From positions 1-64,000 of the forward strand of contig QZLB01000210.1 of NCBI GenBank assembly GCA_004796425.1: DNA of 64,000 nucleotides, written 5' to 3'. The notes under the pieces are model-generated. The model was given only the letters and a program-made list of their open reading frames with translations. It ran no database searches and was not told the DNA's origin. The translations under genes and the position numbers were made by a program. The stretch is from Desulfobulbaceae bacterium (GTDB lineage Bacteria > Desulfobacterota > Desulfobulbia > Desulfobulbales > Desulfocapsaceae). Positions 973 through 23,326 of the stretch are shown here, one piece after another (the stretch's first letter is position 1; every line of letters starts with the position of its first letter).

Positions 973-1018
973 ATCGTACCTTACCGGCTATTCCTTTCCG
1001 GAGCCGGTAAGGTACGAT
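973..1018. terminator. Bidirectional hairpin between convergent genes
   Basis: Perfect 17-bp inverted repeat (arms 973-989 and 1002-1018, 12-nt loop) sits in the 60-bp gap between the aminotransferase and the leftward rubredoxin-type gene. It lacks a clear T-run on either side, so it may act as a bidirectional 3'-end hairpin rather than a classical intrinsic terminator. Confidence 0.7.
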
Positions 1019-1028
1019 AACCAAGCGG

Positions 1029-1652
1029 TTAATTCTTTCTGGTATCAAAAACCAATTTTCCACCAAGATGGCCGGCAATACCGGCAGCTCCTACCATAAC
1101 CAGGCCAATCAGAACGTACACCCATTTACTCTCCGAACCCATGACATCAGGGGTAATAAGTCGCCAGACTACCAGCGCACTCAAGGTTATGGTGACAACA
1201 ATGGAGGCACCTATTTTGACCATAAAGATACCCGTCTTCACCCCCTGGTATCGATTCTGCCACTCGAGATAACCGGTGGCGATAACAGCTGGCATGTTGA
1301 TCAGCACAAAAATCAGACTATAAAAGGCGGCCAACTCAAACCCTGCAATTTGAAACAGCGCCGTTCCCACCAAAAAGAGTAATGCCAGCGGGAGTATGCC
1401 GTTGGGGGTATGTACCATGATCGGATGGAGGTGGAACTTAAGCACGAGACCAGCAATTCCGCCCACTTCCTTTTTGGCCGGTGGTGAGGTTGTCGTCGTT
1501 TCAGCAGGTACTTCCTGGGTTGTACTTTCAGCTTCCGTATCCGAGACCACTTCGGTAAAGTACTCTTTCCCCGCACCACAAATCGGACAAACCTCCGGAG
1601 GTTCATCCCCTTCATGGATGTAACCGCATACTGTACATTCCCATTTTTTCAT
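1029..1652 (-). CDS. Rubredoxin-like domain fused to DUF2231-type membrane domain
   Basis: A 207-residue protein with two parts. The N-terminus is a rubredoxin-like iron site of the rubrerythrin tail type, with Cys6, Cys9, Cys22 and Cys25 in WECTVCGYIHEG and VCPICG. After a Glu/Thr-rich linker (about residues 36-65) come four hydrophobic segments beginning with HPIMVHTPNG, which resembles the DUF2231 membrane family. The ATG at 1652 is chosen because AAGGAGG lies 7 bases upstream; a longer frame to 1694 has no such site. The protein probably transfers electrons at the inner membrane, with the iron domain most likely cytoplasmic, but donor and acceptor are unknown. The gene stands alone, convergent with the aminotransferase. 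Confidence 0.8.
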   Translation of the reverse strand: MKKWECTVCGYIHEGDEPPEVCPICGAGKEYFTEVVSDTEAESTTQEVPAETTTTSPPAKKEVGGIAGLVLKFHLHPIMVHTPNGILPLALLFLVGTALFQIAGFELAAFYSLIFVLINMPAVIATGYLEWQNRYQGVKTGIFMVKIGASIVVTITLSALVVWRLITPDVMGSESKWVYVLIGLVMVGAAGIAGHLGGKLVFDTRKN

Positions 1653-1808
1653 GCTGGATCCTCCTTGCGTTCCACAGAATTTAAGATCTTCCAATGATTA
1701 ATCGTTTGCCAGAATCTGGCCATTACAGCCGGCAACCCTGTTTGGTCTGAGTCACCATAACGTGAATTATTTCAATGTTCAATGCGATTCACTCCCACAC
1801 CACACGGG

Positions 1809-3794
1809 CTATCGATCGGCCAATTCCTGATCAATCTCATCAACCTTCTGTTGTGCTTCCTCCCAACGATCAATCCAGCGATCCAAACGACGGCAACAGT
1901 CATCATACTCCTTGCTTGCCTCACTGAAGGCCTTCTGGTCCTGGTATAACTCAGGGTCAGCCATGGTTGCTTCAAGTTCCTCTTTCAAAATTTCGAGTGC
2001 TTCAATCTTTTTCTCGGATTCACTCACCCTGGTTATCCACTTCCCGGCTTTTTCCTGACGCTCGGCTCTTTTTCGAGCCTCCAGCCGTCGTTGCTCCTTG
2101 CGATTCTCACGGGAACTGTCGTTCTCACGCTCCGGTGACGGCTCAGGATATGCAACTATCCCCGTTTGAGTCTCCTGCTGCTCAGCTCGGTTTTCCTTTT
2201 GATGGATATATTCGCTGATATTGCCGAGAAATTCAGTTACCTGACCATCTTTAACTTCCAGAACTTTGTTGACAAAGCAATCAAGAAAATAGCGATTATG
2301 GGACACCACGATAATGGTCCCATCATATTGGTTCATCGCTTCCTGCAAGACCTCCTGTGATTTCATATCCAGGTGGTTGGTTGGCTCATCAAGAATCATG
2401 CAATTGGCTGGTGTCGCTATCATCTTAGCCAGGGCAAGACGACTCTTCTCGCCACCTGAAAGTACTGAAACCTTTTTATCAACATCCTCACCCCGGAACA
2501 GAAAGGCTCCCAACAGTGAACGCATCTGGGTAACCGTCATGTCAGCGCCGCTGTGCGAGAGCGTCTCGAGCACACTGTAGTTGGCCGGCAGCTCTTGGGC
2601 CTGATGTTGGCCAAAATAAGTTGGCAGCACTCCGGTCCCATATGTAATGGAACCCTCATCGAGGGTGATTTTATCTGCCAACAGTTTCATTAATGTGGAT
2701 TTACCTGCACCGTTATTGCCGACGACCGCTACTTTATCGCCCCGGTTCAACAAAAAATCAACCCCACTGAACACCTGATTTTGATCATAGGATTTACCAA
2801 GCGACTTCACCTTCAGGACATCCCTGCCAGAGCGGGGTGCCGTGGGAAACGTGAAGCGAACCTGATGTTCATCCTCCCTCAACTCTATCTTTTCTAGTCG
2901 ATCCAGTTGTTTGAGTTTAGACTGTGCCTGTCGTGCCTTGGTTGATTTCGCCTTGAATCGTTCAACAAAACGCATGGTCTGGCGAATCTGCGCCTGTTGA
3001 TTATCATAAGCGGCTTTCTCAATCTGGCGTCGTTCCTCCTTTTCAATCAGGTATCGAGAATAATTGCCTTTATAGGAAGTGAGTCTGCCAAGACTGAGTT
3101 CCCAGGTCTTGGTGGTGATGCGATCGAGAAATGTCCGGTCATGGGAGATAATGACCAGGGCGCCTTTATGGGACTGGAGATAGTTCTCAACCCAGGTAAG
3201 AGATTCAAGATCCAGATGATTGGTGGGCTCGTCGAGCAGGAGCAGTGAAGGACAGCTCAAAAGCATCCGTGCCAGCAGCAACCGCATCACCCAGCCTCCT
3301 GAAAACGTTGATACCGGTCGGTTAAAATCATCCCGTGAGAAGCCCAATCCCATCAAAACTTTCTCGGTTTTTGAACGAATTGAGTAGATATCACTGTCCT
3401 CCAACCGGTGCTGAATTGACCCGAGCCGCTCCAGCAACAGTGCCACTTTCGGGTCTTGGGGACCCAGTTCGTTGAGTTGGTTGTTAAGCATCTCTGACTC
3501 CTGCTGAAGTGCCAAAAGTTCAGAGAAGGCCCCTTCGGCCTGATTATAGAGCGTACCTTCACTCAACACTTCTGAGGACTCCTGAGGAAGATATGATACA
3601 GAGAAATGCTTGGCGCAACTCACAACGCCGTCATCGCTGCTCGTTTCCCCTGCCATAATTTTCATCAGGGTTGATTTTCCCGCACCATTTACCCCTACCA
3701 GGCCAATTCGGTCCTGAGGATACACCGCCGCACTTACCGATTTAAAGAGGTGCTTTTCCCCATATTGAATATCTAAATTACTAACCGACAACAT
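1809..3794 (-). CDS. ABC-F family ATPase (ribosome-associated type)
   Basis: A 661-residue protein with two ABC ATPase domains and no membrane segments, the layout of ABC-F proteins (Uup, YheS, EttA), which act on ribosomes rather than in transport. Walker A motifs are at residues 34-42 (GVNGAGKST) and 359-367 (GNNGAGKST); signature motifs are FSGG near 165 and LSGG near 446; both domains have DEPTNHLD. The linker between domains (about 245-310) is basic and helical, and the last 100 residues form a charged coiled coil as in Uup/YheS. It is the last gene of a leftward operon and overlaps the radical SAM gene by 14 bases. The exact subfamily is uncertain. Confidence 0.9.
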   Translation of the reverse strand: MLSVSNLDIQYGEKHLFKSVSAAVYPQDRIGLVGVNGAGKSTLMKIMAGETSSDDGVVSCAKHFSVSYLPQESSEVLSEGTLYNQAEGAFSELLALQQESEMLNNQLNELGPQDPKVALLLERLGSIQHRLEDSDIYSIRSKTEKVLMGLGFSRDDFNRPVSTFSGGWVMRLLLARMLLSCPSLLLLDEPTNHLDLESLTWVENYLQSHKGALVIISHDRTFLDRITTKTWELSLGRLTSYKGNYSRYLIEKEERRQIEKAAYDNQQAQIRQTMRFVERFKAKSTKARQAQSKLKQLDRLEKIELREDEHQVRFTFPTAPRSGRDVLKVKSLGKSYDQNQVFSGVDFLLNRGDKVAVVGNNGAGKSTLMKLLADKITLDEGSITYGTGVLPTYFGQHQAQELPANYSVLETLSHSGADMTVTQMRSLLGAFLFRGEDVDKKVSVLSGGEKSRLALAKMIATPANCMILDEPTNHLDMKSQEVLQEAMNQYDGTIIVVSHNRYFLDCFVNKVLEVKDGQVTEFLGNISEYIHQKENRAEQQETQTGIVAYPEPSPERENDSSRENRKEQRRLEARKRAERQEKAGKWITRVSESEKKIEALEILKEELEATMADPELYQDQKAFSEASKEYDDCCRRLDRWIDRWEEAQQKVDEIDQELADR

Positions 3795-9267: not shown

Positions 9268-10545
9268 ATGAAATTTGACACAATCGCATTGCACGGCGGT
9301 CATACCGTCGATCAGGATAGCCATTCACGGGCGGTACCACTTTACCGAACGAGTGCCTATCTATTCAGAGACACTGAACATGCGGCAAATTTATTTGCCC
9401 TCAAGGAGCTCGGTAATATTTACACCCGCATTGGCAACCCCACCCAGGACGTGCTTGAGCAGCGATTGGCGCAGCTCGAAGGGGGCACGGCGGCACTCGC
9501 GCTGGCCTCAGGTACCTCAGCCATCTTCTACACGATGATCAATATCTGTGCGCACGGTGATGAAGTGGTTGCCGCGAATAATCTCTATGGTGGTACCTAT
9601 ACCCAATTTGATACTATCCTGCCGCAGCTCGGTATCAAAGTGAACATGGTCGATCCGACTGAGCCAGTAAATTTTGCTTCAGCCATCACTGAGAAAACCC
9701 GGGCGCTCTATTGTGAAACCGTCGGCAACCCGGCGCTCAACGTCATTGATCTGGAGGCAATTGCTGAGATTGCCCGGAGCCATCATCTGCCCCTCATCGT
9801 TGATTCTACCTTTACCCCACCGTGTCTCCTGCGTCCGCTGGAACATGGTGCAAATATTGTAATTCACTCGCTGACGAAATGGATCGGTGGTCACGGCACA
9901 GGAATCGGCGGTATTGTGATCGATGGGGCAAATTTTGACTGGACGGATAAAAAGTTCAGTCTCTATAACGAGCCGGATCCATCCTATCACGATCTTCGTT
10001 ACGCCCATGATCTCGGCGACCTCAACCCACTCGCTTTTGCGCTGAGAATGCGGCTGGTGCCACTGAGAAACCTTGGCGCCTGTATCTCACCTGACAACGC
10101 CTGGCAATTCCTCCAGGGCATTGAAACACTTGGTTTGAGAATGGAGAGACATAGCCAGAATGGTGCCCAGGTTGCAGAACATCTGCAAACCCATCAACTG
10201 GTTGATTGGGTCTATTATCCGGGACTGAGTGGTTCGCCCGGTCACGACCAGGCGGTTCGGTACCTCAAAAACGGCTTTGGCGGCATGGTGACCTTTGGCA
10301 TTAAGGGCGGGTTGGCAGCCGGTCAGAAGTTCATCGATTCGCTGGAGATCATTTCACATCTGGCCAATGTTGGTGATGCAAAATCACTGGCAATCCACCC
10401 GGCGTCAACGACTCACTCGCAATTGTCTGAGTCGCAGCGCGCGGAGGCGGGGATTGCCGACTCCATGATTCGCCTGTCCATCGGTATTGAACATATTGAC
10501 GATATTCTCGCTGATATCAACCAGGCACTCGCCAAATCGGCCTGA
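9268..10545 (+). CDS. metY: O-acetylhomoserine sulfhydrylase
   Basis: Makes homocysteine directly from O-acetylhomoserine and sulfide (direct sulfhydrylation), a cytoplasmic step of methionine synthesis suited to a sulfide-rich anaerobe. The 425 residues match the longer MetY branch of the Cys/Met PLP family. Lys204 in SLTKWIGGHG is the PLP lysine, NNLYGGT (about 104-110) is the conserved tyrosine segment, and HPASTTHSQL near the C-terminus is typical of O-acetylhomoserine/O-acetylserine sulfhydrylases. GGAGAG precedes the ATG. It is followed after 17 bases by metX, which supplies its substrate. Confidence 0.95.
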   Translation: MKFDTIALHGGHTVDQDSHSRAVPLYRTSAYLFRDTEHAANLFALKELGNIYTRIGNPTQDVLEQRLAQLEGGTAALALASGTSAIFYTMINICAHGDEVVAANNLYGGTYTQFDTILPQLGIKVNMVDPTEPVNFASAITEKTRALYCETVGNPALNVIDLEAIAEIARSHHLPLIVDSTFTPPCLLRPLEHGANIVIHSLTKWIGGHGTGIGGIVIDGANFDWTDKKFSLYNEPDPSYHDLRYAHDLGDLNPLAFALRMRLVPLRNLGACISPDNAWQFLQGIETLGLRMERHSQNGAQVAEHLQTHQLVDWVYYPGLSGSPGHDQAVRYLKNGFGGMVTFGIKGGLAAGQKFIDSLEIISHLANVGDAKSLAIHPASTTHSQLSESQRAEAGIADSMIRLSIGIEHIDDILADINQALAKSA

Positions 10546-10562
10546 AAACTGAGCCAACCAAC

Positions 10563-11735
10563 ATGAATCCTGACGTTGCGAGCCCTACCAGACTGATCAG
10601 CGAAAAACAATTTTACACCTACGGGCACCCACCCGATAAGGTGATTCTGGAAAGTGGTGCCCAGCTGGGCCCGGTCACCATCGCCTATGAGACCTGGGGC
10701 ACGCTCTCTGAGGAACGAGACAACGTGATACTTGTGGCTCATGCATTTTCCGGTGATTCACATGCGGCTGGTTTCTATCCGGATGACCCTGAAGATGCCA
10801 AACCGGGTTGGTGGGATTCTCTTATTGGCCCGGGCAAGGGGCTTGATACCGAACACTATTTTGTAATTTGTGCAAACATCCTTGGTGGTTGTATGGGAAC
10901 GACAGGCCCGGCCTCAATTAATCCTGAAACGAATCAGCCCTATGGTCTTGATTTCCCAATGATGACCATAGGAGATATCGTTGACACTCAAAAAGCACTG
11001 CTCGACCACCTTCAGATTGACACGCTTCATGCAGTAATTGGTGGATCGGTCGGTGGTATGCAGGTACTCGAATGGTGCGTTAGATATCCACACATGGTGA
11101 AAGCAGCCATTCCGGTCGCTACTACCATGCGGCACTCAGCACTTGCCATCGCTTTTAATGAGGTTGCCCGCCAGGCAATCATGGCTGATCCCCAGTGGAA
11201 AAAAGGAGCTTATTACGACTCCACTCCACCGGATCTCGGCCTGGCGGTTGCCCGAATGGTCGGTCATGTAACCTACCTTTCAGACGAGGCAATGCGCAGA
11301 AAATTTGGCAGAAAACTGCAGAATAAAGATGAGTTTTCTTTTGGCTTTGATGTCGATTTCCAGGTAGAAAGCTACCTTCGCTACCAGGGCAACAAATTCG
11401 TCAAACGTTTTGATGCGAACTCCCTGCTCTACATCACCAAGGCTTCCGATTATTTCGACATGATCGACCGGTCCGCAGAAAAAAAGTCGCTGAGGGACCT
11501 CGATCATGCCTACACCCGCTTTCTGGTGATCAGCTATACCTCAGACTGGCTTTACCCTACGTATCAGGCAAAAGAAATTGTTCAGACTTTGAAGCGAACA
11601 GGCCAGAATGTGAGTTTCTGTGAGATCGAAGCTGATTGCGGGCATGACGCATTTTTAATTCCCGACCAGCGACTGAGCGACATTGTCGGCGGATTTCTTA
11701 AGCGCGCTGAAAGGAGCGACGGCCATGAGATTTGA
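10563..11735 (+). CDS. metX: Homoserine O-acetyltransferase
   Basis: Alpha/beta-hydrolase-fold enzyme that acetylates homoserine from acetyl-CoA, the committed step before MetY. Length 390 residues. The nucleophile is Ser162 in IGGSVGGMQVLEW; the other triad members fit Asp328 (YTSDWLYP) and His361 (DCGHDAF). NILGGCMGTTGP is a further family hallmark. Whether acetyl or succinyl is used cannot be proven by eye, but pairing with metY and this sequence type favour acetyl. Its last 11 bases overlap the start of metW. Confidence 0.95.
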   Translation: MNPDVASPTRLISEKQFYTYGHPPDKVILESGAQLGPVTIAYETWGTLSEERDNVILVAHAFSGDSHAAGFYPDDPEDAKPGWWDSLIGPGKGLDTEHYFVICANILGGCMGTTGPASINPETNQPYGLDFPMMTIGDIVDTQKALLDHLQIDTLHAVIGGSVGGMQVLEWCVRYPHMVKAAIPVATTMRHSALAIAFNEVARQAIMADPQWKKGAYYDSTPPDLGLAVARMVGHVTYLSDEAMRRKFGRKLQNKDEFSFGFDVDFQVESYLRYQGNKFVKRFDANSLLYITKASDYFDMIDRSAEKKSLRDLDHAYTRFLVISYTSDWLYPTYQAKEIVQTLKRTGQNVSFCEIEADCGHDAFLIPDQRLSDIVGGFLKRAERSDGHEI

Positions 11736-12324
11736 TCTGCAGGTGATCTCTTCACGAATTGACCCGGGTTCAACTCTGCTCGATCTGGGGTGCGGAAACG
11801 GCGATCTCTTGGACTGGTTGGCCCGCCACAAGCAGGTCAAGGGCTCCGGTATCGAGCAGGATAAAGATAAAGCGGCCCACTGCATCAGCAGAGGGTTGAG
11901 TGTACTGCAGGGGGATATGCTCGAAGAGATGGAAGACTATCCGGACAAAAGCTTCGATTACGTGATCCTCTCCCAGACACTGCAACAGGTATACGAACCT
12001 GCCCGGCTGCTCTATTCACTATCGCGTATCGGTAGAAGGTTCATCGTCAGTTTTCCAAATTTCAGTCACTGGGTAATTCGAACTGAACTACTACTCAAAG
12101 GTCAGGCCCCGAAGAGCCAGGAGTTACCATACAACTGGTATGACAGTCCCAATATCAGGGTCATTACTTTGAAGGACTTCAGAAAATTTGCGGCCGATGT
12201 GGGCTACCAGATCGTTGAAGAAATCGCCATAAAAACCGGCCCACGCAATAAAACCGGTAAAGTAATCAAATTTTTTAGAAATTTTAGAGCCTCCTACGGC
12301 ATTTTTATTATCGAAAAATCTTAG
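11725..12324 (+). CDS. metW: Methionine biosynthesis protein MetW
   Basis: SAM-methyltransferase-fold protein of 199 residues found next to metX in many proteobacteria; its exact role in methionine synthesis is not settled. Motif I is LLDLGCGNGDLLDWL (about residues 18-32), followed by IEQDKDK and the segment SQTLQQVYEPARLL typical of MetW. ATG at 11725 is chosen since AAGGAG lies 8 bases upstream and the protein then starts MRFDLQVI, as MetW proteins usually do; an upstream in-frame start at 11683 would overlap metX further. The metX-metW overlap implies translational coupling. Confidence 0.92.
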   Translation: MRFDLQVISSRIDPGSTLLDLGCGNGDLLDWLARHKQVKGSGIEQDKDKAAHCISRGLSVLQGDMLEEMEDYPDKSFDYVILSQTLQQVYEPARLLYSLSRIGRRFIVSFPNFSHWVIRTELLLKGQAPKSQELPYNWYDSPNIRVITLKDFRKFAADVGYQIVEEIAIKTGPRNKTGKVIKFFRNFRASYGIFIIEKS

Positions 12325-12341
12325 CCCTGGAAGAGTCAGTG

Positions 12342-13325
12342 ATGCAAACGAAAATAGAAGAGTTAAAGAACGGGGATGAGTGTAATCACCACGAGATCAG
12401 TGCCACAAGCAAACACCACTTGATACCATCGGTAGTTAAGCAGCTCTTGAATTCGTGGAGCACGAAAGAATGCTACGAGCATATCAGCCCGGTGGCAATT
12501 CCATCACATCGTGCCATTGTCGACATTTTAAAACAGGCGCGACGAATTTTGTTCCCCGGATACTTTACCAGTGCAAAACTCCATGCTTCAAACCTGGAGT
12601 ACTATATAGGTAAAGAAACTACCGAGCTTTACGACAAGCTGACCGAGCAGATAACCATGGCCATCAGGCACGACTGCAGGCGAGATAATCAACCCTGTAC
12701 GAACTGTGAACAGCGAGCCAGTGAGATGGCGTATTATTTCATTGGTAAACTGCCAGCCATCGCCTCGGTGCTGGCACAGGATATTCGTTCGACGCTGCAG
12801 GGAGACCCAGCAAGTAAAAGCCATGATGAAATCATCTTCAGCTATCCGGGCCTGCATGCGATCACCATTTACCGGATGGCTCATGAGCTCTTTAAGCTCC
12901 AGGTGCCGATTATCCCCCGGATCATGACAGAATGGGCCCATGGAGAAACCGGTATCGACATTAACCCGGGTGCCCAGATCGGCCCGGGTATATTTATCGA
13001 CCATGGAACCGGGGTGGTCATTGGAGAGACCACGATTATTGGTAAAAATGTCAGGATCTATCAAGGAGTTACCCTGGGTGCACTCAGCCTGCCCCGGGAT
13101 GCCGGCAAATCGCTTCGGAATACCAAGCGGCATCCGACCATCGAAGATAATGTGATCATTTATTCAAACACCACCATCTTAGGTGGTGATACGGTGATCG
13201 GTGCAAATTCAGTGATTGGTGGTAATATCTGGCTCACCGAGAGTGTCAGCACCGGCACCAAAGTTCTGCTTAAAAAACCTGAACTTATCTATCAAAAATC
13301 AATCACCAACATAACAGGAGCGTAG
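12342..13325 (+). CDS. cysE: Serine O-acetyltransferase (EpsC-like, long N-terminus)
   Basis: Acetylates serine from acetyl-CoA to give O-acetylserine for cysteine synthesis. The 327-residue chain has an all-helical N-terminal region of about 190 residues and a C-terminal left-handed beta-helix of hexapeptide repeats ([23 protein letters not shown]). The His of [12 protein letters not shown] and the Asp pair are the usual active-site residues. ATG at 12342 is preferred to the adjacent GTG at 12339 because GGAAGAG is then 6 bases away. A Cys pair (CTNCEQ) near residue 125 is not a classic CysE feature. The gene sits 17 bases after metW and directly before cysK. Confidence 0.93.
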
Positions 13326-13326
13326 C

Positions 13327-14244
13327 ATGGCACTTTCTCTGAACGAAACATTTGGTTGTACGCCACTTTTATCCCTGCAGCGATTGGGTAGTGACAGTGG
13401 AGCCACCATTCTGGTTAAACAGGAATCCCGCAACCCCATGGGCAGCGTTAAATGTCGAATTGCCGTTGCCATGATCGACGCTGCCATCGGCGAAGGAAAA
13501 ATTACAGAAAAAACCACGATTGTCGAACCCACAAGTGGAAATACCGGACTTGGGCTGGCTTTTGTCTGCGCCGCAAAGGGATTGAATTTAACGTTGACCA
13601 TGCCGGAAAGTATGAGTCTTGAACGGAGGATGCTGTTAAAGCATCTTGGTGCACAACTGGTACTCACCCCCGCGGCTAAAGGTATGAAAGGAGCGATCAG
13701 TGCAGCAGAGGAAATTCTTGCTGAAAACCCTGACTCATTTATGCCGAACCAGTTTGGCAACCCGGCCAATCCTGAAATACATCGCAAAACAACAGCCGAG
13801 GAAATCTGGCATGACTGCCCCACAGTCGATATTTTTGTCTCCGGCGTCGGCACGGGTGGGACCATCACCGGTGTTTCTGAGGTATTGAAGCTGAAAAACC
13901 CGAACCTGAAAAGTGTGGCGGTTGAACCTGCAGCCTCTCCGGTCCTTTCCGGTGGTGATCCCGGACCTCACAAGATTCAGGGTATCGGAGCGGGCTTCGT
14001 ACCGCCAATTCTCAATACCGAAATCATTGATGAGATCATCCAGGTAACCAACGAGGATGCCATTGGCACAGCCAGAGCGCTTGCCCGCAGTGAAGGAATT
14101 CTTTGCGGTATCTCCTCGGGCGCTGCCGCCTGGGCGGCCCTGCAGCTTGCCAGCAGAGCTGAAAACAACGGCAAAACCATCGTGGTTATTTTACCCGATA
14201 CCGGGGAACGCTACCTGAGTACAGACCTGCTGGAAAAGGATTAG
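13327..14244 (+). CDS. cysK: Cysteine synthase (O-acetylserine sulfhydrylase A)
   Basis: PLP enzyme joining O-acetylserine and sulfide into cysteine; 305 residues, as expected. Lys42 in [11 protein letters not shown] binds [15 protein letters not shown] is the substrate loop, and [11 protein letters not shown] is the phosphate-binding loop. AGGAG precedes the ATG, which begins 2 bases after the cysE stop, fitting the known CysE-CysK cysteine-synthase complex in which the CysE C-terminus enters the CysK active site. The CysE tail here ends in NITGA rather than the more usual terminal isoleucine, so complex formation is not assured. Last gene of the met-cys unit. Confidence 0.95.
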
Positions 14245-20630: not shown

Positions 20631-22148
20631 CTAATAGTGGGCTTTGCGGCCAAACGGGATCTGGAGTTTTCGCATGCGCTTTCTCAGCGTCGATGGATTA
20701 ACCCCGAGCAGTCGCGCCGCACCATGTTCTCCACCAACTTTACCACCCGTCATGGACATGACGCGTTTGATATGGTTGGTCGTACACGTATCAAGATCTA
20801 GCTCGGCTTCTGAAAAGTCCTCCAGCCGTAGCGCATTCCCGGATCTTCCCGCCGTCAGGGACGCCAGATCCAGCTGTCCTGTATCATTGTGCAGGATCGC
20901 ATTCTCGATCAGATTGCTCAACTCCTTCACATTTCCCGGCCACTCATATTCATAACAACGGGGGAGGGAGTTTTTATCGAGCGTGACCATTTCCGATCGA
21001 TTCATCAGTCGGCAATGTTTTTCAATAAAGTATTCTGCAAGCCGAGCCAGATCCTCTTTGCGATCTCGCAGCGGTGGTATGGTAATCGTATGTGCAGTCA
21101 TCGATTCCACCAGAGACAACTCTGAACGGTGTTGCTCATCCAGCACCAGAAAAAGCCGGACATCACACTTCAGCCGCTCCCCGTCCCGCCCTGTACTGAT
21201 TGAACGATTGAGTGCCAGCTCAGCCAGTCGTTTCCTGATTTCCAGCGGCAGCCCCAAAACCCCGGAGATTACCGCACTTCCGCCAGATGCACGTTGAAAC
21301 AATCCTTTTTTGCTATCAAATAGAGTCTGACCGACCTCCGGTGCCAAACCAAAAAGATAGTCTGCAAGCTGCGCCTCGGGGATTCGTGCACAATTAACCT
21401 CTATAAACGGCTGTTCTTGCCGCCCGGAAAGTTGGTGAATGGTGCGGGCAAGGAATTTACGACCACTGCCAGTCTCCCCAATCAAACAGAGGTTGTCATC
21501 CTCAGTTCCCGCCTTTCGCACCTCAGGCATGATCCCACGCAACCCCATGTCAGCACCGATAATCTCCTCAGGAATCTCCCCATCTTCCATATTGGTGTTA
21601 AAGTGCTTGAAGTTATCACTCAGCTTCTGGTGGCGATTACGGATATTTCGATAGTGAAAGCAGTTTTTTATGCCGACTGAAAGTGGTTGTCGCAGTTGAG
21701 CAAGTGTATTGCCATGGGATCTTTCGAACTCCTTTCCAGGTTCTGCCACCAGAAAGAGCAGGCCGATCATTTTTTTGCCAATTACCATTCTCACAACAAT
21801 TAAAGAAGCATCACCGGCGATCAAACCCGCTTCTATCAATCCCTTGGCCGGCAGTGCCGCCGAAGCACGGCGAAACATGGTGATCGGTGCCCCCATCCCG
21901 CCCAGCGCTTTGGCCACGTCCATTTCTGTTCTTAATCGATTGGAAACTTCCCGCGAGCCTTCTCGATCACTTATCCCCAAGACCATCATGACCGAATCAC
22001 TGGGGTAAAACCCCGCCAGTAAAATCTTATCGACCGGTGAAAAGTCCTTGGTCAAATTATCGATACTCTCTAGAAAGGGGCTGAATTCAAGATGAGAACA
22101 GATGGATATCGTCGCCTCAATAATCTGTTTGTCTGCAAGATCACTCAT
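20631..22148 (-). CDS. Sigma-54-activator-like regulator with degenerate AAA+ core
   Basis: A 505-residue protein with an N-terminal GAF-like domain (about 15-165), an AAA+ domain of the NtrC family (about 195-420) and a C-terminal Fis-type helix-turn-helix (HGAARLLGVNPSTLRKRMRK). The ATPase core is ruined: Walker A reads GETGSGRK (224-231), with Arg where the lysine should be; Walker B, normally LFLDE, is AVISG (about 292-296); and the GAFTGA loop that touches sigma-54 is missing between LFG (265-267) and KKGLFQRA. WPGNVKELSNLIENAIL near 415 is still well kept. It likely binds DNA and senses a ligand but cannot remodel sigma-54 RNA polymerase. It lies 15 bases before the PLP enzyme, suggesting it controls that gene. 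Confidence 0.9.
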   Translation of the reverse strand: MSDLADKQIIEATISICSHLEFSPFLESIDNLTKDFSPVDKILLAGFYPSDSVMMVLGISDREGSREVSNRLRTEMDVAKALGGMGAPITMFRRASAALPAKGLIEAGLIAGDASLIVVRMVIGKKMIGLLFLVAEPGKEFERSHGNTLAQLRQPLSVGIKNCFHYRNIRNRHQKLSDNFKHFNTNMEDGEIPEEIIGADMGLRGIMPEVRKAGTEDDNLCLIGETGSGRKFLARTIHQLSGRQEQPFIEVNCARIPEAQLADYLFGLAPEVGQTLFDSKKGLFQRASGGSAVISGVLGLPLEIRKRLAELALNRSISTGRDGERLKCDVRLFLVLDEQHRSELSLVESMTAHTITIPPLRDRKEDLARLAEYFIEKHCRLMNRSEMVTLDKNSLPRCYEYEWPGNVKELSNLIENAILHNDTGQLDLASLTAGRSGNALRLEDFSEAELDLDTCTTNHIKRVMSMTGGKVGGEHGAARLLGVNPSTLRKRMRKLQIPFGRKAHY

Positions 22149-22396
22149 GTTAATTTCCTGAAAGAAAAGAACCCAAAATACTCCATGGGAGATTTACCTC
22201 ATAAAAAAGTCATAATATGCCCCATGGCGCAAATATTTCAAGCTGAATTCTCTTTGAAACTACGAAAAACGGCTCGTCTCATCGCTTTTACCTATCATAA
22301 CGTTTACAATTTCCTACTAAATGTCTTATGTTACTGAGAGTCCGCTCAGGATAATACCTGAGTCATAAATGATACTCCTCGCACCCCAGGTAACTC
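22149..22396. promoter_or_regulatory. Divergent regulatory region between two regulators
   Basis: 248 bases shared by the degenerate activator (leftward) and the LysR gene (rightward). Three mutually complementary segments lie close to the LysR start: CTGAG (22334-22338), CTCAG (22345-22349) and CCTGAG (22357-22362), so two alternative hairpins compete for the middle segment. TCATAAATGA, a near-palindrome of the kind LysR proteins bind, follows at 22363-22372. Confidence 0.4.
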
Positions 22397-23326
22397 ATGG
22401 ATACCCGACATCTGAGAATATTCACCACCATTTACCGAACAAGAAGTTTCACCAAAGCCTCTCAGGAGCTTTTCACCAGCCAGCCAACCGTGAGTGAACA
22501 TATGAGAAATCTCGAAGAGCAGCTTGGTTGTAAGCTCTTTGACCGGCTGGGGCGTTCAATTTTACCCACCGCCGAAGCTGAAGTGCTTTACCCTCGGGCC
22601 ATCGATATTCTCAATGAACTGGACCAGATCGAAAAGACGCTCTCCTCTGTTACCAACAGTGTTTCAGGCGAGCTGCTTATCGGGGCAAGTACGATACCCG
22701 GAGCATACATTATTCCAGGGTATGCCGCGCTTTTTAAAAGGAAATATCCGGATGTCTCCTACCAGATTCTGATACGTGATTCCGAAGATATCATCAATGA
22801 GATTTCAACACACAAACTGTACCTTGGTATCGTTGGTGCGCGGACTCCTTCCAAAAATGTTGAGTACACACCGTTCGGCTCTGACGAATTAGTCCTCGCC
22901 GGTCCGGCCAATGATACGTTGCCAGATCGACTCAACCTCTCCGAGCTCGCTGGTCTTGATTTTTTGATTCGTGAAAAAGGTTCGGGTACGGGTAAAACCC
23001 TGAGAAACTATCTGCAGCAACATAACTTCCCGTATGATCAGCTCAATGTGCGGGCCATACTTGGCTCATCAACGGCAATCAAAGAAGCGGTGAAATCCGG
23101 TCTGGGTGTCGCGTTCATTTCCAAAACCGCCATCGCCGATGATCTCAGCGCAGAGACAATAAAGATCATCAAGGTTAAAGGAGTAACGATAAAAAGAACC
23201 TTTTTTATTGTTACCCCGCGCAAACGAACCATGCCTAATCATTACCTGGTTTTTGCCAATTCACTCAAAGCAAGTGTGACCGGACCCAAAGGTGTGTATT
23301 TAGGCGAGCGTCATGAAGCTCCATAA
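22397..23326 (+). CDS. LysR-family transcriptional regulator
   Basis: A 309-residue LysR regulator. The winged helix-turn-helix fills residues 1-60 (LRIFTTIYRTRSFTKASQELFTSQPTVSEHMRNLEEQLGCKLFDR, read here in parts: TKASQEL as the turn and SQPTVSEHMRNLEE as the recognition helix). The effector domain (about 90-295) has the periplasmic-binding-like fold with ELLIGASTIPGAYIIPGYA, like CysL/selenium-metabolism and YeiE-type LysR proteins. The ligand is unknown. LysR proteins often control a divergent neighbour, here the degenerate activator and the PLP enzyme downstream of it, which would place it in sulfur amino-acid control; this is inference. Confidence 0.93.
   Translation: MDTRHLRIFTTIYRTRSFTKASQELFTSQPTVSEHMRNLEEQLGCKLFDRLGRSILPTAEAEVLYPRAIDILNELDQIEKTLSSVTNSVSGELLIGASTIPGAYIIPGYAALFKRKYPDVSYQILIRDSEDIINEISTHKLYLGIVGARTPSKNVEYTPFGSDELVLAGPANDTLPDRLNLSELAGLDFLIREKGSGTGKTLRNYLQQHNFPYDQLNVRAILGSSTAIKEAVKSGLGVAFISKTAIADDLSAETIKIIKVKGVTIKRTFFIVTPRKRTMPNHYLVFANSLKASVTGPKGVYLGERHEAP

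Follow-up and report, generated by a model that had tools for sequence, protein, structure and literature searches.

A clade of sigma-54 activator homologues that lost ATPase and sigma-54-contact residues, and a proposed local repressor role for its member in the window

What does a bacterial enhancer-binding protein (bEBP) do once its ATPase is gone, these proteins being textbook ATP-driven activators? The question is raised by a gene in the window, the stretch of 64,000 nucleotides analyzed here, whose product was described in an earlier note, made from the sequence alone, as a sigma-54-activator homologue with a dead ATPase. The ORF had been read correctly there in coordinates and strand, and it encodes 505 aa (Table 1). 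Pfam profiles recovered a full-length NtrC/FhlA-type architecture with Sigma54_activat (E=4e-19), AAA_lid_14 (E=3e-14) and a Fis-type HTH (HTH_8, E=7e-5). The retention of the WPGNV.EL segment and of the HTH, as claimed earlier, was borne out by Pfam and by alignment. The N-terminus had no Pfam match, and sisters alignable with the protein from end to end gave weak GAF_2 matches (E 2e-5 to 0.02), which fall below the curated cut-off. By homology, the protein has the AAA+ fold together with its lid and the Fis-type HTH. AlphaFold modelled the core and lid confidently and in agreement with bEBP structures; this fold match adds weak support, since the input alignment was made of bEBP homologues, mostly with intact motifs. 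The modelled N-terminus was unreliable (pLDDT mostly < 60) because few N-terminal homologues could enter the alignment.

Table 1. Coordinates of the regulator gene, its domains and degenerate motifs, the proposed upstream sites and the neighboring genes in the window
Feature	Position	Strand	Basis or remark
CDS, degenerate bEBP homologue, 505 aa	20631..22148	(-)	ORF call and Pfam
N-terminal sensor-like domain, residues 1-165	21654..22148	(-)	GAF-like via weak profile matches of intact sisters
AAA+ core, residues 195-360	21069..21566	(-)	fold kept, catalysis lost (sequence and model)
Degenerate Walker A GETGSGRK, Lys to Arg230, P-loop glycines retained	21456..21479	(-)	alignment
GAFTGA loop position, residues 271-276, motif absent, loop length retained	21321..21338	(-)	alignment
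Walker B DE to S295-G296	21261..21266	(-)	alignment
Sensor I Thr/Asn to Leu/Asp	21138..21143	(-)	alignment
Arg-finger segment FRxDLYYRL, shortened, both Arg gone	21099..21134	(-)	alignment
AAA lid, residues 361-433, WPGNV.EL retained	20850..21068	(-)	Pfam and alignment
Sensor II Arg to Lys408	20925..20927	(-)	alignment
Fis-type HTH, residues 450-505	20634..20801	(-)	best-conserved region among the three members
Proximal palindrome AAATACTCCATGGGAGATTT, proposed operator	22176..22195	strand-less	sequence comparison
Distal palindrome ATATGCCCCATGGCGCAAAT, proposed operator, 39 bp from proximal	22215..22234	strand-less	sequence comparison
Sigma-70-like promoter TTGAAA-18-TATTAT	22212..22241	(-)	consensus match only
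Cys/Met-metabolism PLP enzyme, starts 15 bases downstream of the regulator stop codon	19485..20615	(-)	profile match
LysR-type regulator, NF040786 'selenium metabolism-associated'	22397..23326	(+)	profile match above cut-off
metY-metX-metW-cysE-cysK operon	9268..14244	(+)	same window

Ten catalytic or sigma-54-contacting positions (Walker A Lys, GAFTGA F/T, Walker B DE, sensor I, both Arg fingers and sensor II) were checked in an alignment of bEBPs from the same genome and from related genomes, together with E. coli TyrR and DhaR. In the window protein none of the ten remains, while the other bEBPs in the alignment keep every one of them in 53 out of 53 cases, with the usual F/Y, T/S and N/H exchanges allowed. 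Three of these losses had been noticed before. Arg230 indeed stands at the Walker A Lys position and S295-G296 at that of the Walker B DE pair. The count of three was an understatement, as sensor I, the two Arg fingers and the Arg of sensor II have disappeared too. The GAFTGA motif is absent as described, but the loop itself is not missing: the stretch reads LAPEVGQTLFD, which is full-length and different in sequence, with no deletion.

A second degenerate bEBP-type core is encoded in the same genome (L030 on G000:C267, about 1000-3459). A cyclic-nucleotide-binding domain precedes the AAA core, which has the Walker A GESGTGRR and lacks both GAFTGA and the Walker B DE, and what looks like a membrane segment matching Fer4_5 follows; no HTH was matched at this locus.

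The survey for members with the same losses, suggested in the earlier note, found the two nearest relatives, G002:C680 (38% identity) and G021:C25 (41%), which come from two further genera of the family. They have 9 of the 10 losses in common with the window protein and retain only the Walker A Lys. Assembly or frameshift error as the cause was considered and rejected, since the losses recur in these two genera. In a tree built from the N-terminal and HTH columns only, with the ATPase left out, the three proteins formed one clade (support 100/100). Profile searches of 258 genomes of the order and of 395 sampled from the phylum detected no further members; the class search took in those 258 genomes again. 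In the order search, profile scores fell from 822 bits to 343, and the best non-member of the phylum search scored 370. Every other profile match with motifs listed had GAFTGA or GSFTGA plus FLDE, the automatic Walker A match of one (L149) having landed on a different stretch. A single-protein scan of 84,980 species genomes, which reaches close relatives only, gave no relative. Only three genomes are known to carry members, the window's own being 4.4 Mb in 330 contigs. Among the sisters, one bEBP with intact motifs carried one in-frame TAA (L039 / L163, G026:C47).

Constraint on the domains was compared between the clade and its sisters. The mean identity of the AAA core was 71% in 47 intact sisters versus 35% among the three clade members, while that of the HTH was 52% versus 66%; the N-terminal domain was unchanged at 34%. 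In the clade HTH, codon positions 1 and 2 differed by 0.24-0.28 per site and position 3 by 0.62-0.66, indicating that selection still acts on this domain. The identities and codon-position differences together show that the loss of constraint is confined to the ATPase and that this is no pseudogene. The comparisons support a fixed clade under purifying selection, which has retained its DNA-binding domain and lost its ATPase and sigma-54-contact residues. The idea of a regulator recycled from a sigma-54 activator was therefore upheld.

Upstream of the regulator gene, two imperfect 20-bp palindromes were located at distances of about 37 and 76 bp from the start codon. A palindrome pair with the same spacing of 39 bp was present in G002, about 35 and 74 bp upstream, and none of 600 dinucleotide-shuffle pairs gave any such shared arrangement. 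When a palindromic motif was learned from the intact sister promoters alone (consensus ATcTAcCATATATGgTAgAT; log-likelihood 160 versus a shuffle maximum of 44), its top score fell at the distal site both in the window, where 21 of 2000 shuffles did as well, and in G002, where 8 of 2000 did; it matched nothing in the G021 upstream region. The palindromes most likely belong to a bEBP-type HTH and not to LysR, since a motif from intact sister promoters finds them. Intact GAF-type one-component sisters of this phylum (e.g., L157, L169, L173, L014) carry one or two ATcTAcCATATATGgTAgAT palindromes upstream, in most cases 25-115 bp from the start codon of the gene itself, a position that suggests an autoregulatory operator.

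No exact match to the site pattern occurs in the 4.4 Mb genome outside the two window palindromes, pointing to a local regulator. Allowing up to one mismatch, 63 matches were obtained genome-wide versus 43 in a reversed control, and none made a convincing regulon member. A site pair beside a TetR-type gene (C234) was rejected as such because it looks like the operator of the TetR-type regulator itself. Two near-perfect palindromes, ATATGAACCATAGTTCACTT / ATGTGAACTATGGTTCATAT, lie near a TetR-type gene at L325, 3654-3707.

With respect to the putative sigma-70-like promoter, the distal palindrome fills the spacer and covers part of the -10 element, and the proximal one lies just downstream. This placement has the geometry of a repressor, and a repressor is favored over an activator on the basis of site position; of the roles suggested earlier, the repressor is the one that the paired palindromes would favor. 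A sigma-70-like promoter was not found in G002, and matches to a sigma-54 promoter near the gene in the window were at chance level only.

The earlier description of the neighborhood, a PLP gene 15 bases beyond the stop codon and a divergent LysR gene, was accurate. The PLP gene is probably co-transcribed with the regulator gene. As a conserved target it was rejected, the gene being missing in both G002 and G021, and no degenerate regulator of this type was found beside close PLP homologues in 26 loci (L067-L092), where the sole adjacent bEBP (L089) had intact motifs. In G005, from the genus of G021, the LysR gene and a PLP gene of 61% identity are direct divergent neighbors without an intervening bEBP, and in G025 only a PLP gene fragment lies beside the LysR gene (L208, 1184-1360). 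Gene gain or loss is therefore frequent at the LysR-flanking spot. An orthologous LysR gene, however, is divergent to the regulator gene in all three genomes. At 17 of the 30 examined loci, orthologues of this constant partner stand next to cysE-cysK, homologues of genes that the window carries in its metY-metX-metW-cysE-cysK operon. The link of the regulator to the pathway is therefore indirect, and it is plausible that the connection to cysteine/methionine metabolism runs through the LysR gene and not the PLP gene. The sulfur amino-acid link claimed earlier is thus weaker than stated there. In G021 (L062, 1762-3383), the regulator has near it a gene for a TusA-DsrE protein, which Pfam marks as yedF-like, and one that resembles selD by eye, consistent with the selenium in the LysR family name.

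We propose that a one-component GAF-type sigma-54 activator gave rise to a pseudo-ATPase descendant, which would no longer hydrolyse ATP nor touch sigma-54. The protein would be a dimeric (or higher) sequence-specific DNA-binding switch, its binding being predicted from the conserved HTH and the sites. It would occupy the palindromes flanking and overlapping the putative sigma-70-type promoter and repress its own transcript, which in the window would include the PLP gene. Repression would lift once the N-terminal domain senses a metabolite, probably one in cysteine/methionine metabolism, and the regulator would act alongside the divergent LysR regulator. From the sequence comparisons, a sigma-54-independent, ATPase-dead, ligand-responsive local repressor is considered the likely identity of the protein, and it probably represses its own operon.

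The same protein might instead activate from a sigma-70-type promoter, binding upstream sites and recruiting RNA polymerase, perhaps with nucleotide bound and not hydrolysed. Nucleotide binding may persist, since the P-loop glycines are conserved in 3/3 members, a Lys directly follows Arg230 in the window protein and the Walker A Lys itself remains in both relatives. Other GAFTGA-less bEBPs do work at sigma-70 promoters, such as R. capsulatus NtrC and VpsR (PMC10274813). However, the only recognised sites lie across and downstream of the putative promoter, as those of a repressor would, and the window protein has exchanged its own Walker A Lys for Arg, so that activation is regarded as unlikely.

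It could also be argued that the palindromes are LysR sites and that the degenerate protein is merely a target of LysR, its constant neighbor. LysR proteins commonly act on divergent genes. Similar palindromes, however, lie upstream of intact sister bEBPs, whose genes were gathered regardless of LysR, which makes this explanation improbable.

A slightly poorer candidate is a dominant-negative partner, which would mix or compete with intact paralogues of similar HTH (C111, C125) and thereby tune sigma-54 promoters. Intact subfamily paralogues do occur in the same genome, one with an HTH 62% identical (C111). Against such mixing, the window sites have a CCATGG-type core while the paralogues' own sites have a CGTATATG- or CATATTTG-type core, and the Arg fingers, residues of the AAA interface, are gone. 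A decaying, functionless gene would agree with the strong divergence of the AAA core but is highly improbable, as the ORF is intact in three genera with its HTH under purifying selection, the losses are common to the clade and the operator pair is conserved in two genera.

The proposed repressor can be compared with known systems. Among bEBP homologues, TyrR, DhaR and HupR, and probably VpsR and YplP, lack GAFTGA and use sigma-70 (PMC3162934). NtrC of R. capsulatus and Caulobacter likewise has no GAFTGA and acts at sigma-70 promoters; the former needs ATP binding only and the latter still needs Walker A/B residues, while VpsR needs no ATP (PMC10274813). The window protein resembles these homologues in lacking GAFTGA and retaining the DNA-binding domain, and its action at a sigma-70 promoter is predicted from the consensus match in the window; both NtrC proteins differ from it in being response regulators.

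The closest pattern of losses among known systems was that of E. coli DhaR, which is also one-component, lacks GAFTGA and has lost both Arg fingers and the sensor II Arg; its Walker B reads EK rather than DE. Its gene is divergent to the dhaKLM operon, and it is reported to be sigma-70 dependent (PMC3162934). Unlike the window protein, DhaR still has the Lys of Walker A and the Thr of sensor I. It is no orthologue, as identity to it is about 25% in both AAA core and HTH, versus 62% between the HTHs of the window protein and its intact sister C111. The window clade is therefore independent of DhaR, whose loss, to the extent that sequence can show, arose separately. TyrR of E. coli, and PhhR, likewise descend from sigma-54 activators and lack GAFTGA; they depend on sigma-70 and act on aromatic amino-acid genes (PMC3162934). 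In TyrR, in contrast to the window protein, Walker A, Walker B, the Arg fingers and sensor II are intact and only the loop is deleted. Vibrio cholerae VpsR has a receiver-type N-terminus, that of the window protein being putatively GAF-like. Like the window protein, VpsR is GAFTGA-less; it acts at sigma-70 promoters and has no need of ATP (PMC10274813). Its crystal structure (7v2b), a c-di-GMP-binding dimer according to the PDB title, matches the AAA fold of the window protein model. The intact GAF-type sisters of the same phylum (G000:C111, C125) have the same domain order, an alignable N-terminus and similar palindromic promoter sites, but retain GAFTGA, Walker A/B, sensors and Arg fingers.

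Of the aligned sequences, which do not include VpsR, that of the window protein shows the fullest loss. To call it an unusual regulator, as the earlier note did, was an overstatement given the precedents of DhaR, TyrR, HupR, VpsR and R. capsulatus NtrC (PMC3162934, PMC10274813). Most likely the protein acts as a plain DNA-binding switch, an already known, though rare, kind of regulator, and the clade is a further independent case. Beyond that, we suggest only tentatively a lineage in which a sigma-54 activator became a ligand-gated repressor that retained the paired autoregulatory operators of its subfamily and forms, with the divergent LysR protein, a two-regulator module controlling cysteine/methionine metabolism; its dead AAA+ core would be a purely structural or a nucleotide-reading scaffold. 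For family members of this type, the annotation 'sigma-54-dependent regulator' is wrong. With sensor and DNA-binding domain retained, predicted operators in 2/3 genomes and intact paralogues alongside, the clade offers a clean natural test of the role of the AAA+ core once ATP hydrolysis is impossible.
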